A DNA stretch of 64,000 nt from Mesorhizobium mediterraneum (GTDB lineage: Bacteria; Pseudomonadota; Alphaproteobacteria; Rhizobiales; Rhizobiaceae). A model generated the notes under the pieces. It made no database searches. It saw only the letters and a program-made list of their open reading frames with translations, and was not told the DNA's origin. Both the position numbers and the translations under genes were made by a program. How positions within the stretch are numbered: position 1 is the stretch's first letter; each line of letters begins with the position of its first letter. The stretch spans positions 558,001 through 622,000 of the forward strand of contig NZ_NPKI01000015.1 in assembly GCF_002284565.1 (NCBI RefSeq). The letters are read 5' to 3'. Of this stretch, positions 47,074 to 59,759 are shown piece by piece.

Positions 47074-47895
47074 CTACCGTGTCTTGCCGCGCAGGGCAAC
47101 GATGGCCGCCGCCGTCTCCTCGATCGAGCGGCGGCTGACGTCTATCATCGGCCAGCCATGCCGGGTGCAGATCTGGCGGGCGTAGGCGAGTTCCTCGGAG
47201 ATCGCGGCGCGGTCGACATAGTCGGTCGGCTCGTAGGCACTCGTATTGCCGAGGATGCGGTTCTGGCGGACCTGCGAGATGCGCTCCGCTGTGGCAATCA
47301 GTCCGACGATCAGCGGCTTCGTGGCGTTGACCAGGCTTTCCGGCACCGGCACGCCGAGCACGATCGGGATGTTGGCGGTCTTGATGCCGCGATTGGCGAG
47401 ATAGATGCTGGTCGGCGTCTTCGAGGTGCGCGAAATGCCGACGAGCACAATGTCGGCATCATCCATATTGGCCGGCAGCTGGCCGTCATCATGCTCCATG
47501 GTGAAGTTGAGCGCGTCGATGCGGCGAAAATATTCGGCGTCGAGAACATGCTGGGCGCCGACACGGCGGCCGGCCGGTGTACCGAGATAGGACTGGAACA
47601 CGGTCAGCACAGGTTCCAGCACGGAGACGCAAGGCAGGCCCATGGCGGCGCAGCGTTCGTCAATGCCGCGGGCGAGCTTCTGGTCGACGACCGTATAGAG
47701 GATGATGCCCGGCTCCTCCTCGATATCCTCGAACACTTTCGTCACCTGCTTCTCGGTCCGGATGAGCGGGTAGATGTGCTCGATGGCGCGCGCATCCTTG
47801 TATTGCGCAGAAGCCGCGCGGCCGGCCGCCAGCAGCGTCTCACCGGTGGCATCGGAAATCAGGTGGAGGTGAAAGAAGCTCTGGGGTTTGTTCAC
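47074..47895 (-). CDS. ppsR: Pyruvate, phosphate/water dikinase regulatory protein (DUF299)
   Basis: This bifunctional kinase/pyrophosphorylase controls PpdK or PpsA by phosphorylation in response to ADP. The 273-residue protein has [20 protein letters not shown], the nucleotide-binding [15 protein letters not shown], and [14 protein letters not shown] at the C-terminus. The GTG at 47895 matches the family N-terminus [19 protein letters not shown]. It is divergent from hemE across the putative origin, the same arrangement as at other alphaproteobacterial origins, where this gene is the RP001 homologue. Confidence 0.9.
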
Positions 47896-48298
47896 AGGGG
47901 TTCGTTCCAAGCTGTGGGCCGATGTGGATAAGGTCGGTCGGAAAGGTCGGTCGGTTTGGGGCGACTGTATCAGATGCCGGTTTGTCCACAATTCGATGCG
48001 CTGTCGGCTTCGTCGGGCGGTTGGGGACAAGTCCGGGGACGGGCTTTTTTGACTCGGCCCTATCCACAGGCCCATTTTCTTTGCGCTGGCGGCAACGCAT
48101 TGACTCTAGTCGGAAATTTCCAACTGTCCCCAATCCCCTCCTATCCGGCAGAAGAAGCACGCGACAATATGCTGGCTGGCCTTTTCCGGGGCAAAGCGGG
48201 ACAGGAGACAACCACCGATACCAACAGACTCTTAGAATCATAAGATTCCTAGAAATAGAATATTTAATTATAGAGAAGCCTGGAGAGGCGAGCGCCGA
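47896..48298. other. oriC: Putative chromosome replication origin (oriC)
   Basis: This 403-base intergenic region between divergent ppsR and hemE has origin features. DnaA-box-like sites lie at 47888-47896 (TTGTTCACA), 47923-47931 (TTATCCACA on the minus strand, perfect), 47982-47990 (TTGTCCACA) and 48060-48068 (CTATCCACA). Five GANTC sites lie at 48051, 48102, 48227, 48235 and 48244. An inverted pair TTGGGGACA/TGTCCCCAA lies at 48021 and 48125. An AT-rich tract of about 55 bases (48228-48282) could unwind. The hemE-RP001 position is the known origin location in Caulobacter and several rhizobia. Activity is inferred, not shown. Confidence 0.85.
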
Positions 48299-49327
48299 AT
48301 GCCTGAAAACCGGATCATGCGGGACGTGTTGAAGGGCGAAGCGGTGTTTCCACCGCCGCTCTGGATGATGCGGCAAGCCGGCCGCTATCTGCCGGAATAT
48401 CGGGAGACACGCAGGCGGGCCGGATCGTTCCTCGATCTCTGCTATAATCCCGACTTCGCGGTGGAGGTGACACTGCAGCCGATCGAGCGCTTCGGCTTCG
48501 ATGCATCGATCCTGTTTTCCGATATCCTTGTCGTGCCGCATGCGCTGGGCCGCGACGTGCGCTTCGAGGAAGGGCGCGGGCCGTTACTGACGCCGATCTC
48601 GGCCACGGGGATTGCGGCTCTGGACGGGGAAACGTTTCACGTGAATCTCGAACCGGTCTATGAGACGGTCAGACGGCTGCGGGCAAAACTGCCCGATGAA
48701 ACGACGCTGATCGGCTTCTGCGGCGCGCCCTGGACGGTGGCGACCTATATGATCGCCGGCCACGGCACCTCAGACCAGGCCCCGGCGCGGCTGTTTGCCT
48801 ATCGTGAGCCGGCCGCTTTCTTGCAGCTGCTGAACGTGCTTGCCGATCATTCGGCCGCCTACCTCATCCGCCAGATCGAGGCCGGCGCTGATGTGGTGCA
48901 GATCTTCGACTCGTGGTCCGGCGTGCTCGATGAAGTTTCGTTCGAGGCTTTTTGCATCAAGCCCGTGGCCGAGATCGTCAGGCAGGTGCGAGCCGTTCAT
49001 CCCGATGTTCCGATCATCGGCTTTCCCAAGGGCGCCGGCGCCCACTACCGGAGCTATCGCCAGAAGACCGGCGTCACGGGACTGGGGCTCGACTGGACCG
49101 TGCCTCTAACGGCGGCGCGTGAATTGCAGCGCGACGGCGCCGTACAGGGCAACCTCGACCCATTGCGGCTGGTGGCCGGCGGCAAGGCTCTAGCCGACGG
49201 CGTCGACGCAATCCTGAAAGCACTGCGCGATGGACCGCTGATCTTCAATCTCGGCCATGGCATCACGCCGGAAACGCCGATCGCGCATGTCGAGGCGATG
49301 GTCAAAATGGTGCGGAGCGCGTCATGA
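48299..49327 (+). CDS. hemE: Uroporphyrinogen decarboxylase
   Basis: This cytoplasmic heme-pathway enzyme converts uroporphyrinogen III to coproporphyrinogen III. The 342-residue TIM-barrel protein has [45 protein letters not shown] and [10 protein letters not shown]. The ATG at 48299 follows GGAGAGGCG. It starts at the edge of the putative origin and overlaps hemJ (ATGA). A parS-like site lies within it at 48633. Confidence 0.96.
48633..48648. other. parS-like site inside hemE
   Basis: CGTTTCACGTGAATCT matches the core parS 14-mer GTTTCACGTGAAAC at 13 of 14 positions. It is about 340 bases from the putative origin, inside the hemE coding sequence. Confidence 0.55.
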
Positions 49328-53698: not shown

Positions 53699-55021
53699 AT
53701 GATTTCAAGTGATTCCATTGTTGCCCTGTCGAGCGGCCGCCTGCCCGCCGGCGTTGCCGTGATCCGCATTTCGGGTCCGCAAAGTCGATTCGTTTTCGAA
53801 ACGATTGCCGGTCCAGTGGTTAAGAACCGTGTTGCGGCCTATCGCAAGTTCAGGGCGCCGGACGGATCGGTGCTCGACAGCGGCCTGGTCGTTTTCTTCG
53901 CGGGACCGAACAGCTTTACTGGTGAGGATATCGCGGAATTCCATGTCCATGGCGGCCGCGCCGTGGTGGCGAAGATGCTGGAGACGATCGCCGGCTTCGA
54001 TGGCGTCAGGCATGCCGAGCCGGGCGAGTTCACCCGCCGCGCCTTTCTTAACGGCAAGGTCGACCTGGTCGAGACCGAGGCGCTGGCCGATCTCGTCAAC
54101 GCCGAGACGGAGGCGCAGCGGCGCTTTGCCGTGCAGAATGCCGAGAGCGTGCAGAGCGAGCTCTATCTGGGCTGGCGGGGTCGGCTCATCCATGCGCGGG
54201 CGATGATCGAAGCCGAGATCGATTTTGCCGACGAAGACGATGTGCCCGGTTCCGTTGCAGAGACGGTCTGGTCGGATGTGCGCGCGATGATCGACGAGAT
54301 CGAGCGTCATGTCGAAGGTTTCCGAGCCGCAGAGATCATCCGCGACGGGTTCGAGGTCGTCATCCTCGGCGCGCCGAATGCCGGCAAGTCCAGTCTGTTC
54401 AATGCGCTGGCCCGGCGCGAGGCGGCGATCGTCACGGAAGAGCCCGGCACGACCCGCGATCTGCTCGAGGTGGTGCTGGACCTGGAGGGGATGCGCGTCA
54501 GAGTGACCGATACCGCCGGCCTGCGCGAGACGCCCGGCAGGATCGAGGCGATTGGCATCGAAAGGGCAAGGAGCAAGGCCGGAACCGCCGATCTGTTGCT
54601 CGTGTTGGAGGATATGGTGGACCCGGTCCCGATCGGCGCAATACCGGCCGATATCCCGACATTGAGGATCGGGACAAAGGTCGATTTGCTGCGAGATGAA
54701 TCGCTTGCAACGCGCTACGACGCGGTCATCTCGACCAGGGACGGAACAGGGCTGGCGGAGCTGCTGGCGGAGATCGGCCAACGCGCCGCGGCGCAAATCG
54801 GCCAGGCCGGCGATGTCCTGCCGTCGCGGCTGCGGCACGTCGAGCTTCTCAATGAGGCGAAACGCTTTCTGCTTGCGGCGGTGGGAGGGGATGAGCGCGG
54901 GCAAGAGCTGCGGGCCGAGGAATTGCGGCTGGCAGCTGATAGGCTTGGCCGGATCGTTGGGGCGGTCGATGTCGAGGATTTGCTGGACGTAATCTTCTCG
55001 CAATTCTGCATCGGCAAATGA
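53699..55021 (+). CDS. mnmE: tRNA modification GTPase MnmE
   Basis: With MnmG it makes the 5-carboxymethylaminomethyl group on wobble uridine. The 440-residue protein has the tetrahydrofolate-binding start (IVALSSGRLPAGVAVIRISG), helical domain, and a GTPase domain with G1 ILGAPNAGKSSLFN, G3 VTDTAGLRE, and the C-terminal CIGK box with its catalytic Cys. ATG 53699 is preferred over GTG 53684. Its stop overlaps the first parS-like site. Confidence 0.96.
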   Translation: MISSDSIVALSSGRLPAGVAVIRISGPQSRFVFETIAGPVVKNRVAAYRKFRAPDGSVLDSGLVVFFAGPNSFTGEDIAEFHVHGGRAVVAKMLETIAGFDGVRHAEPGEFTRRAFLNGKVDLVETEALADLVNAETEAQRRFAVQNAESVQSELYLGWRGRLIHARAMIEAEIDFADEDDVPGSVAETVWSDVRAMIDEIERHVEGFRAAEIIRDGFEVVILGAPNAGKSSLFNALARREAAIVTEEPGTTRDLLEVVLDLEGMRVRVTDTAGLRETPGRIEAIGIERARSKAGTADLLLVLEDMVDPVPIGAIPADIPTLRIGTKVDLLRDESLATRYDAVISTRDGTGLAELLAEIGQRAAAQIGQAGDVLPSRLRHVELLNEAKRFLLAAVGGDERGQELRAEELRLAADRLGRIVGAVDVEDLLDVIFSQFCIGK

Positions 55022-55109
55022 CTCACGTGAAACACTGGGGAGGGAAGGCTCGCGATGATTCACGTGAAACGCTGAGTGATCACGTCGAAGGCATTGTTTC
55101 ACGTGAAAC
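55020..55109. other. Cluster of three parS sites
   Basis: GACTCACGTGAAAC at 55020 (two mismatches to the core), GATTCACGTGAAAC at 55057 (one mismatch) and a perfect GTTTCACGTGAAAC at 55096 lie within 90 bases between mnmE and mnmG. ParB should bind here and bring the origin to the pole. Confidence 0.85.
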
Positions 55110-55201
55110 GATTCGCCGGGCAATCGCTTTAGGTTGAGTTCGCTCCTCACTGATTCCGGGGCGAGCCGTGGCGCGCCGGCGCTAGAGCTTTTGTGCGCTC
55201 T

Positions 55202-57337: not shown

Positions 57338-57969
57338 ATGCTGCCTCATGGGTGAGCCTGCAAGAGGCTGCAGGTCCGGTTTCACGTGAAACATTCGATC
57401 GCCTGGTCGAGTTCGAGACGGTCTTCCAGAAATGGAACCGCCGGATAAACCTGGCGGCGCAATCTACGCAGGCCGATGTCTGGCGCCGCCACATCCTCGA
57501 CAGCGCGCAGCTTGCGCGAATCAAACCGGACGCAAAGCGCTGGGTCGATCTCGGCTCGGGCGGCGGTTTTCCCGGCCTGGTGCTTGCCTTCCTGCTTGCC
57601 GAGCGTGACGGCGCCAGCATCGATCTGGTTGAGAGCAACCGGAAGAAAGCGTCGTTCCTGCAAGCGGTCGTCGGGCAGTTCAATCTGCCGGCGAGAGTCA
57701 TCGCGCGGCGCATCGATGATGCCTATCCGCTTGTTTCGACACCTCAAATCGTCACGGCCAGGGCGCTGGCGTCGCTTCCGACGTTGCTTGACCTATCGGC
57801 GCCGTGGCTGACGGCGGGCGCGCGCGGCCTGTTCCACAAAGGCCGGGATTACCGCGCCGAAGTGGCAGAAAGCGCTCAACGATGGTCGTTCGATCTGGTA
57901 GAACATGCCAGCGCGACCGACGCTCATGGCGTCATCCTCGAACTGTCTGATTTGCGCCAACTGACTTAG
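57334..57969 (+). CDS. rsmG: 16S rRNA (guanine-527-N7)-methyltransferase RsmG (GidB)
   Basis: The SAM-dependent methyltransferase acts on G527 of 16S rRNA; loss gives low-level streptomycin resistance in other species. The 211-residue protein has the SAM loop [19 protein letters not shown] and [15 protein letters not shown], with [11 protein letters not shown] at the N-terminus. The GTG start overlaps mnmG. A perfect parS core is embedded at 57379. Confidence 0.95.
57379..57392. other. Perfect parS core inside rsmG
   Basis: GTTTCACGTGAAAC occurs as codons for VSRET in rsmG. It is identical to the core 14-mer at 55096 and lies about 590 bases upstream of parA. Confidence 0.85.
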
Positions 57970-57984
57970 ATCGGCGACCTCGGA

Positions 57985-58806
<822 letters not shown>

Positions 58807-58874
58807 TGCAGTCGCCCAAAACTGGGAACTGGTATGCAGAAGATAATTCGATACCGAAACGATCTGGACAGACG

Positions 58875-59759
58875 ATGAGCGAAGACCTTTCAAGAAAAAG
58901 ACTGGGGCGGGGACTGGCCGCGCTGATCGGCGAAATCAATCGTCCGGCAGCAGTGGAAAAGCAAGGCATGAATGCCGACGGCAAGGTGCCGATCGAGTTC
59001 CTGAGCCCGAACCCTAAAAATCCGCGCCGGCATTTTGGCGACGCCGACCTGACCGATCTTGCCCAGTCGATCCGCGAGCACGGCGTGGTGCAGCCGGTGG
59101 TGGCGCGGCCGTCGCCGACGCAAGCTGGCCGCTACGAGATCATCGCCGGCGAGCGGCGCTGGCGCGCGGCGCAGCGCGCCGGGCTGAGCGAGATTCCGAT
59201 CATCGTGCGCGACGTCAACGATCGCACCGCACTCGAGCTGGCGATCATCGAAAACGTCCAGCGCACCGACCTCAATCCGGTCGAGGAGGCGATGGGCTAC
59301 CAGCAGTTGATCGACGATCACGGCTACACCCAGGCCGATCTCGGCCAGGTGATCGGCAAGAGCCGCAGCCATGTCGCCAACACGCTGAGGCTGCTGAAGC
59401 TGCCGGACGTGATCCGCGACATGCTGGTCGACGGCGCGCTGTCGGCCGGCCACGCCCGCACATTGGTGACGGCAGAGGATCCGGCGGGCCTGGCCAAGCG
59501 GATCGTCGAGGAGGGGCTTTCGGTGCGCCAGGCCGAAGCGCTGGCGCAGATGCCGGCGGGCGCTCCAACCGTAAAGCGACAGCCTGCGGAACCGGCGCAA
59601 AAAGATGCCGATACGCTGGCGCTGGAAAAGCTGATGACCGACACGATAGGCATGATCGTCACGATCGAGCACAAGGAACGCGGCGGCGTGCTGCGCGTCG
59701 CCTATCGGACATTGGACCAGCTCGATGAGCTCTGCCGAAGGCTGAAGCAGGAGCGGTAG
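58875..59759 (+). CDS. parB: Chromosome partitioning protein ParB
   Basis: The 294-residue CTPase and DNA-binding protein has the ParB/Srx domain (NPRRHFGDADLTDLAQSIRE, GRYEIIAGERRWRAAQRAG), IIENVQRTDLNPVEEAMGYQ, and the helix-turn-helix YTQADLGQVIGKSRSHVANT for parS. The C-terminal dimer part ends LDELCRRLKQER. ATG 58875 gives the family start MSEDLSRKRLGRGLAALIGE. Its targets are the parS sites at 48633, 55020-55109 and 57379. Confidence 0.96.
   Translation: MSEDLSRKRLGRGLAALIGEINRPAAVEKQGMNADGKVPIEFLSPNPKNPRRHFGDADLTDLAQSIREHGVVQPVVARPSPTQAGRYEIIAGERRWRAAQRAGLSEIPIIVRDVNDRTALELAIIENVQRTDLNPVEEAMGYQQLIDDHGYTQADLGQVIGKSRSHVANTLRLLKLPDVIRDMLVDGALSAGHARTLVTAEDPAGLAKRIVEEGLSVRQAEALAQMPAGAPTVKRQPAEPAQKDADTLALEKLMTDTIGMIVTIEHKERGGVLRVAYRTLDQLDELCRRLKQER

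Follow-up and report, generated by a model that had tools for sequence, protein, structure and literature searches.

Where does replication of the chromosome begin in a Mesorhizobium, a bacterium of soil and root nodules, and which DNA elements would open it? In the portions consulted of PMC1914354, the location between hemE and a COG1806 gene is described as that of the experimentally verified origin of Caulobacter; the same location has been described for Rickettsia and serves as a criterion in other genomes. The locus considered here lies in a stretch of 64,000 nucleotides, called the window, which spans bases 558001-622000 of the 899-kb contig C25, part of a Mesorhizobium draft genome of 7.19 Mb in 52 contigs. 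Compared by hemE, its nearest named relatives belong to Mesorhizobium. An original prediction had placed a probable oriC at positions 47896-48298 of the window, between ppsR and hemE, and the sequence comparisons presented below indicate that this region is very probably where replication of the Mesorhizobium chromosome starts. Such a hemE-side oriC is expected for the group and ordinary in kind, and the unexpected detail is a conserved core containing sites for the methylase CcrM. Among the closest known systems is another rhizobial chromosomal origin, the oriC of Sinorhizobium meliloti (Sibley et al. 2006), an origin that reportedly adjoins hemE.

The ppsR-hemE interval and its DnaA boxes

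The interval is bordered on the left by ppsR (COG1806/DUF299/RP001 homologue; 47074..47895, reverse strand; NCBIfam PRK05339, 340.8 bits against a cut-off of 225), which, judging from relatives, would start with the GTG at 47895 on the reverse strand, and on the right by hemE, encoding uroporphyrinogen decarboxylase (48299..49327, forward strand; TIGR01464, 413.8 bits against 302.95). It thus occupies the position between hemE and the COG1806 gene that characterises hemE-type origins. The predicted order ppsR (reverse strand), hemE, hemJ, rho, mnmE, mnmG, rsmG, parA and parB was recovered with NCBIfam models, parA being reached only through ParA/MinD-superfamily models scoring under their cut-offs. 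The gene at 57985..58806 (forward strand) is probably ParA, a name given by its position beside parB (58731..59759, forward strand; TIGR00180, 188.2 bits against 58.45). Pfam models place maf, aroE, coaE and dnaQ-type exonuclease genes on the left side, and a holA-type gene on the right; between rho and mnmE they identify a gene with a thioredoxin domain of the DsbH type. The dnaA gene is found on a separate contig, C21. In one Mesorhizobium relative, a second hemE, 77% identical, is present (G008:C1:6231638-6232639).

Conservation was followed in a set of 110 hemE loci, consisting of 30 from a genus search (33 matches, one of them too weak and two others outside the 30 loci) and the best 80 of 587 from a scan of named genomes. 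Eleven loci in which ppsR is not alongside (L068, L069, L071, L075, L088, L089, L092, L094, L095, L100 and L102) were set aside, and L027, which reaches a contig end and has no ppsR in its stretch, was retained together with L052 and L076, which have partial ppsR matches. The addition of four loci found from the ppsR side (L156-L159) gave 103 loci, reduced to 68 after removal of near-duplicates. The ppsR-hemE gap measures 385-757 bp, with a median of 403.5, and 87 of 96 gaps fall within 390-440 bp. One record (L081), named Bacillus subtilis SK6B4, has a rhizobial ppsR-hemE origin region under this title and is therefore probably mislabelled or contaminated.

Four DnaA boxes, one perfect and three near-perfect, had been announced for this interval, and all of them were found. 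Box 1, TTGTTCACA (47888-47896, forward strand), has one mismatch to TTATNCACA and overlaps the first three ppsR codons, GTG AAC AAA (47895-47887); box 2, TTATCCACA (47923-47931, reverse strand), is perfect; and box 3, TTGTCCACA (47982-47990, forward strand), and box 4, CTATCCACA (48060-48068, forward strand), have one mismatch each. The predicted interval clips box 1, since it starts at the last base of this box. The number of DnaA-box-like sites with at most one mismatch in the 64-kb window is seven, against a mean of 11.19 in shuffled sequence, and therefore is not unusual. What is unusual is their clustering, four of the seven being located within 181 bp. In a genome-wide box search limited to TTRTCCACA, 43 sites were found in the whole draft, and the only pair less than 1 kb apart is that formed by C25:605923 and C25:605982, separated by 59 bp and both in the ppsR-hemE gap; the next closest pair, on contig C12, is 2.9 kb apart. 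The box cluster is thus unrepeated in the genome, as looked for in hemE-type origins, a statement that holds genome-wide for TTRTCCACA only.

Boxes 1, 2, 3 and 4 are in place in 55, 55, 56 and 19, respectively, of the 56 L003-L060 loci with ppsR, and boxes 1-3 occur together in 54 of these 56 Mesorhizobium-type loci. Among the 67 non-redundant loci with ppsR, the same boxes are in place in 34, 45, 61 and 18 cases, and the first three are all placed in 28, the layout drifting beyond Mesorhizobium. In the 68-row alignment, mean column identity is 0.83, 0.84, 0.90 and 0.73 for boxes 1 to 4, box 3 being the best conserved of them and box 4 only weakly conserved.

Other motifs of the interval have fared differently. 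The inverted pair proposed earlier is present, with TTGGGGACA at 48021-48029 on the forward strand and at 48125-48133 on the reverse strand, and two copies were found against 0.21 expected, a number attained in 2 of 100 shuffles. However, both arms are exact in only 1 of 110 loci, that of the Mesorhizobium window itself, so that TTGGGGACA/TGTCCCCAA is unsupported as a functional inverted pair. The arm cores are partly conserved: the first arm is mostly CTGGGGACA across Mesorhizobium, and in the second the core TCCCCA alone is moderately conserved. Overlapping the first arm, TTGTCCCCA (48022-48030, reverse strand) resembles a weak DnaA box, with two mismatches to TTATCCACA. The block GCGACTGTATCAGATG (47961..47976) is near-invariant in 46 unique Mesorhizobium-type sequences and weaker in the 68 order-wide loci. 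The conserved blocks 48160-48171 and 47961-47973 are partly alike (CGCGACAATATG and GCGACTGTATCAG), and neither matched any of the site types tried. An IHF-like candidate, AGTCAATGCGTTG (48093..48105, reverse strand, one mismatch), recurs at the same position in several Mesorhizobium loci. IHF-like sites with at most one mismatch are present somewhere in 50 of 68 loci, their positions differing between loci; when each locus was shuffled once, 21 of 68 had such a site. A CcrM site, GACTC, is located at 48102..48106.

The origin Cori of Caulobacter crescentus shares with the present locus its location between hemE and the COG1806 gene ppsR and its DnaA boxes (PMC1914354, PMC8959179), an AT-rich region (PMC8959179) and several GANTC sites (PMC3973325), as far as the sections consulted of these sources describe it. 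In contrast to Cori, the window region lacks CtrA boxes (TTAA-N7-TTAA): none was found there at up to two mismatches, exact boxes occur in 0 of 68 loci, and boxes with at most one mismatch in 14 of 68, whereas a single shuffle of each locus left 9 of 68 with such a box. Full CtrA boxes, a component of the Caulobacter origin, were thus rejected for this locus, which in this respect does not resemble a CtrA-silenced origin of the Caulobacter type; their absence is a point against the origin reading.

The AT-rich tract and its 20-bp core

The AT-rich tract, a proposed duplex unwinding element, extends from 48216 to 48286 and contains the most AT-rich 55-mers of the window. The 55-base tract pointed out originally (48228-48282) does contain 40 A+T in 55 positions, a content reached by 15 of the 63,946 55-bp stretches of the window, all starting at 48216-48232; within the 64-kb window, AT content is therefore higher here than in the surroundings, as in hemE-type origins. 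The tract includes a 20-bp core, ACAGACTCTTAGAATCATAA (48224..48243, forward strand; consensus of relatives ACAGACTCTwAGAATCAGAA), which shows the highest 20-bp mean column identity, 0.92, in the 68 loci (starts 47900-48279, outside ppsR). At up to two mismatches, the core matches once in its own genome; across the class, 3 of 387 genomes have a match, the other two being small genomes of other families whose matches are taken for chance; none was found in the other five genomes of the same family or order, only six of the 387, its own included, being that close.

Three CcrM sites are found in or directly after the core. Site A, GACTC (48227..48231), is GANTC in 67 of 68 loci, its four fixed letters being conserved in 67-68 of 68 and its N being C in 58, G in 9 and T in 1. 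Site B, GAATC (48235..48239), is GANTC in 51 of 68 loci, and site C, GATTC (48244..48248), which directly follows the core, in 40 of 68, with N distributed among these 40 as T15/A13/C12. Read on the bottom strand, the tract is GAATC-TTAT-GATTC-TAA-GAGTC-TG, that is, three direct repeats, each consisting of a CcrM site followed by T. A degenerate DnaA box, ATACCAACA (48218-48226), with three mismatches to TTATCCACA counted by eye, adjoins these repeats.

How might this core be read? It has been considered that it could be a DnaA-trio (BUS) element, read by a DnaA filament, a possible but rather unlikely interpretation. As in Bacillus-type elements, the AT-rich tract carries invariant adenines with a period of 3 (48234, 48237, 48240 and 48243, each in 68 of 68 loci), which give the consensus WAG-AAT-CAG-AAG and hence at least three NAN trinucleotides in phase, and TAG, AAG, AAT and CAG are among the trios of B. 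subtilis and H. pylori listed in the consulted part of PMC10316083. What differs from the Bacillus type is the accompanying box, which matches too poorly and seems to sit on the opposite side. No DnaA box with at most two mismatches lies within 16 bp, and the three mismatches of ATACCAACA exceed the limit of two applied to a sole box in BUS calls, as given in the consulted part of PMC8287927. With respect to the A-rich strand, the box at 48218-48226 is on the 5' side, whereas the box of described BUS elements is on the 3' side, and the polarity probably does not fit.

A second reading takes the GANTC sites as an initiation timer, in which the hemimethylated tract, once the origin has fired, would resist re-opening until CcrM acts late in the cell cycle, in the manner of Dam and SeqA in E. 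coli but with other proteins. This is unlikely in our judgement, and methylation control of the origin is best called conceivable. The unwinding 13-mers of E. coli oriC carry Dam sites beside DnaA boxes, and the tract resembles them: three short repeats, each opening with an adenine-methylation site, beside DnaA boxes. The Mesorhizobium tract differs in its methylase and its motif, and unwinding is here only proposed; moreover, we know of no SeqA-type partner for GANTC. The genome does encode a CcrM orthologue, with a RAMA domain and 552 bits to 6pbd, Modification methylase CcrMI, and the conservation of GANTC at site A with a variable N, and at site C, where present, with N free, also speaks for such a timer. 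The sites B and C are, however, missing in many loci. In a sample of 464 kb of the same genome, made up of the window and further stretches, all on C25, 616 GANTC sites were counted, and three of them within 22 bp are found a single time, precisely in the origin tract. Against this, at least four GANTC within 150 bp are found at other places too in the 464 kb, and the exact triple spacing, with one genome match, is not significant by itself, because a reversed control pattern likewise matches once. The data on ccrM from Caulobacter and Agrobacterium also argue against methylation control: in Caulobacter lacking ccrM, the DNA-content profile resembles that of the wild type (PMC3973325), and in Agrobacterium the CcrM level alters ori2 and not detectably ori1 (PMC11514494), in the portions of these sources consulted.

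In its widest form, this idea would be that the origins of Mesorhizobium, Aminobacter, Brucella, Phyllobacterium, Rhizobium and, in part, relatives of Aurantimonas share an unwinding core of GANTCT repeats, conserved at least as well as the best DnaA box and with the CcrM site under selection, an alphaproteobacterial equivalent, evolved independently, of the 13-mers with Dam sites in E. coli oriC, which would couple unwinding or re-initiation to methylation state. We advance it tentatively, as improbable in its entirety. That the origins of Caulobacter and its near relatives contain GANTC sites has been noted (PMC3973325, sections consulted), and no description of the rhizobial core was found in the consulted portions of the literature searched, mostly outside subscription journals (PMC8116508, PMC8959179, PMC11514494, PMC3973325, PMC1914354, PMC8725594, PMC8287927, PMC6669920, PMC10316083, PMC4414408, PMC2877005, PMC6090056).

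Linkage of the core to the probable origin rather than to hemE

In most loci, hemE begins 54-100 bp downstream of the core, and CcrM methylation at promoter regions shapes the Caulobacter transcriptome (PMC11514494, sections consulted). Both facts would suit a different reading, in which the conserved AT-rich core is a promoter or leader of hemE, controlled for instance by CcrM/GcrA, and the box cluster alone is the origin. The distances to the two neighbouring genes speak against it. In the Mesorhizobium-type loci L003-L060, site A is separated from the ppsR start by 330-333 bp in all 56 measurable loci, near-duplicates included, and by 330-332 bp in the 25 non-redundant ones, whereas its distance to hemE drifts between 68 and 427 bp (58 loci). 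When all loci are included, site A lies 327-354 bp from the ppsR start (99 loci) and 54-427 bp from hemE (98 loci), the site A pattern being present in 102 of 103 loci, with L111 as the exception. These distances were counted from the first match of a pattern that never matches twice; an earlier choice of the match nearest to 332 bp leaned towards a fixed distance, and both counts agree for L003-L060. Extra DNA on the hemE side is found in five of these loci, L004, L022, L026, L037 and L053, with about 355 extra bases between core and hemE in L037 and about 90-115 in the other four.

Loci in which the two genes have been separated lead to the same conclusion. In L157 and L158 (genomes G031 and G034), what follows the origin is not hemE; instead, translations inspected by eye point to a hemJ-like gene and rho. 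Both boxes and core are kept there, and hemE is located elsewhere in these genomes (L068, L075). Conversely, neither DnaA boxes nor the core were found in the 440 bp upstream of the hemE copies away from ppsR (L068, L069, L071 and L075), of which L069 and L071 are further copies in genomes that retain hemE at the origin (L156, L159). Taking into account that the ppsR distance is fixed, that the hemE distance drifts and that the core is kept in two origins lacking hemE, the core belongs to the origin rather than to hemE. A hemE promoter or leader is thus a doubtful explanation of the core; in L157 and L158, a promoter now serving hemJ is conceivable. No ppsR match at E ≤ 0.001 was obtained in seven genomes (G035-G041), among which are several relatives of Aurantimonas; the core pattern is present upstream of hemE in five of them (L088, L089, L092, L094 and L102), nearly so in L100, and absent in L095.

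Chromosomal position and proposed initiation

The surroundings of the locus are those of a chromosomal origin. Beside parA and parB, four parS-like sites are found at 55019-55034, 55056-55071, 55095-55110 and 57378..57393, so that parAB and parS are nearby, as in hemE-type origins. At one or two mismatches, parS-like sites exist at eight places in the genome; the four near the origin (C25:613019-615393), 7-9 kb off, include both of the genome's one-mismatch places, and the other four, on other contigs, have two mismatches each, a reversed control pattern giving four matches. The first three sites are gathered in 92 bp around the mnmE end (55019-55110), and two of them hold a CcrM site beside the CACGTG centre (GACTCACGTG, GATTCACGTG), while GATTC comes after the third.

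The position opposite the origin was looked for with a dif-like pattern. At up to one mismatch, a broader form of it matched 5-8 places in each of four genomes, and two of these genomes had an additional exact match; the putative dif-like site is the exact match common to all four, chosen before any distance was computed. This 18-mer has a single copy in the Mesorhizobium draft (C19) and likewise in all of ten near-complete relatives, the copy of G015 differing by one mismatch. The origin-dif arc was read in these relatives, the draft itself being in 52 contigs, and from hemE to the dif-like site it covers 0.452-0.497 of the main contig (mean 0.484) in all ten, which are not independent, because they are related to one another. 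In G004, the end of the contig falls inside the ppsR-hemE gap, at 409 bases from the hemE match.

The GC-skew check suggested with the original prediction gave little: no sign change appears at the site on its own contig (mean +0.0076 to the left and +0.0127 to the right; computed for the window and 20 stretches of 20 kb each), and one relative, G020, shows a weak difference between its two replichores (-0.0001 against -0.018, p = 0.07; 20 stretches of 20 kb). GC skew has been reported as insufficient in several alphaproteobacteria (PMC1914354, sections consulted). The polarity of GGGNAGGG, with 402 forward and 431 reverse copies in the whole genome, gave no signal on the own contig and minor support in the G020 samples (13:4 against 4:9 on the replichores, Fisher p = 0.025).

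It is very improbable that the active chromosomal origin lies elsewhere, the locus being a relic or a cluster of DnaA-regulated promoters: the flat GC skew at the site and the double role of DnaA as a transcription factor (PMC8203912, sections consulted) would allow it, but no second TTRTCCACA pair less than 1 kb apart exists in the genome, the dif-like site is near-antipodal in 10 of 10 relatives, parS-like sites are nearby and the locus is conserved in related genera. The identification of the ppsR-hemE interval as the origin, advanced originally from its layout, is thus supported, because it holds the only close TTRTCCACA pair, has parS-like sites within 10 kb, faces a near-antipodal dif-like site and shows a conserved architecture.

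From the anatomy of the locus, its conservation, the linkage of the core to the origin and the chromosomal position in relatives, all established here, a working scheme can be proposed. The best explanation of the whole, which we hold with high confidence on sequence grounds, is that the ppsR-hemE gap together with the 5' end of ppsR would constitute oriC; the arrangement agrees with a DnaA-bound part next to ppsR and an opening part next to hemE. DnaA would bind to the box cluster (47888-48068) and oligomerise there, perhaps assisted by bending of the DNA in the middle of the region, where an IHF-like protein may bind at 48093-48105. Towards hemE, the DnaA complex would then open the AT-rich tract (48216-48286), the place at which the helicase would be loaded. 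Within the tract, the initiation machinery may recognise the core at 48224-48243, which DnaA would most likely read in single-stranded form.

With this analysis, the probable start of replication in this Mesorhizobium is located, and on its left side the origin now reaches beyond the predicted interval to box 1, inside the ppsR start. The 20-bp core, which lies in that interval, would provide a sharp signature of rhizobial origins, independent of GC skew and neighbouring genes, both of which are fallible in this group. Finally, the old question of why CcrM sites are present in alphaproteobacterial origins, although initiation in Caulobacter is not visibly disturbed when CcrM is lost, may now be asked at three testable sites.
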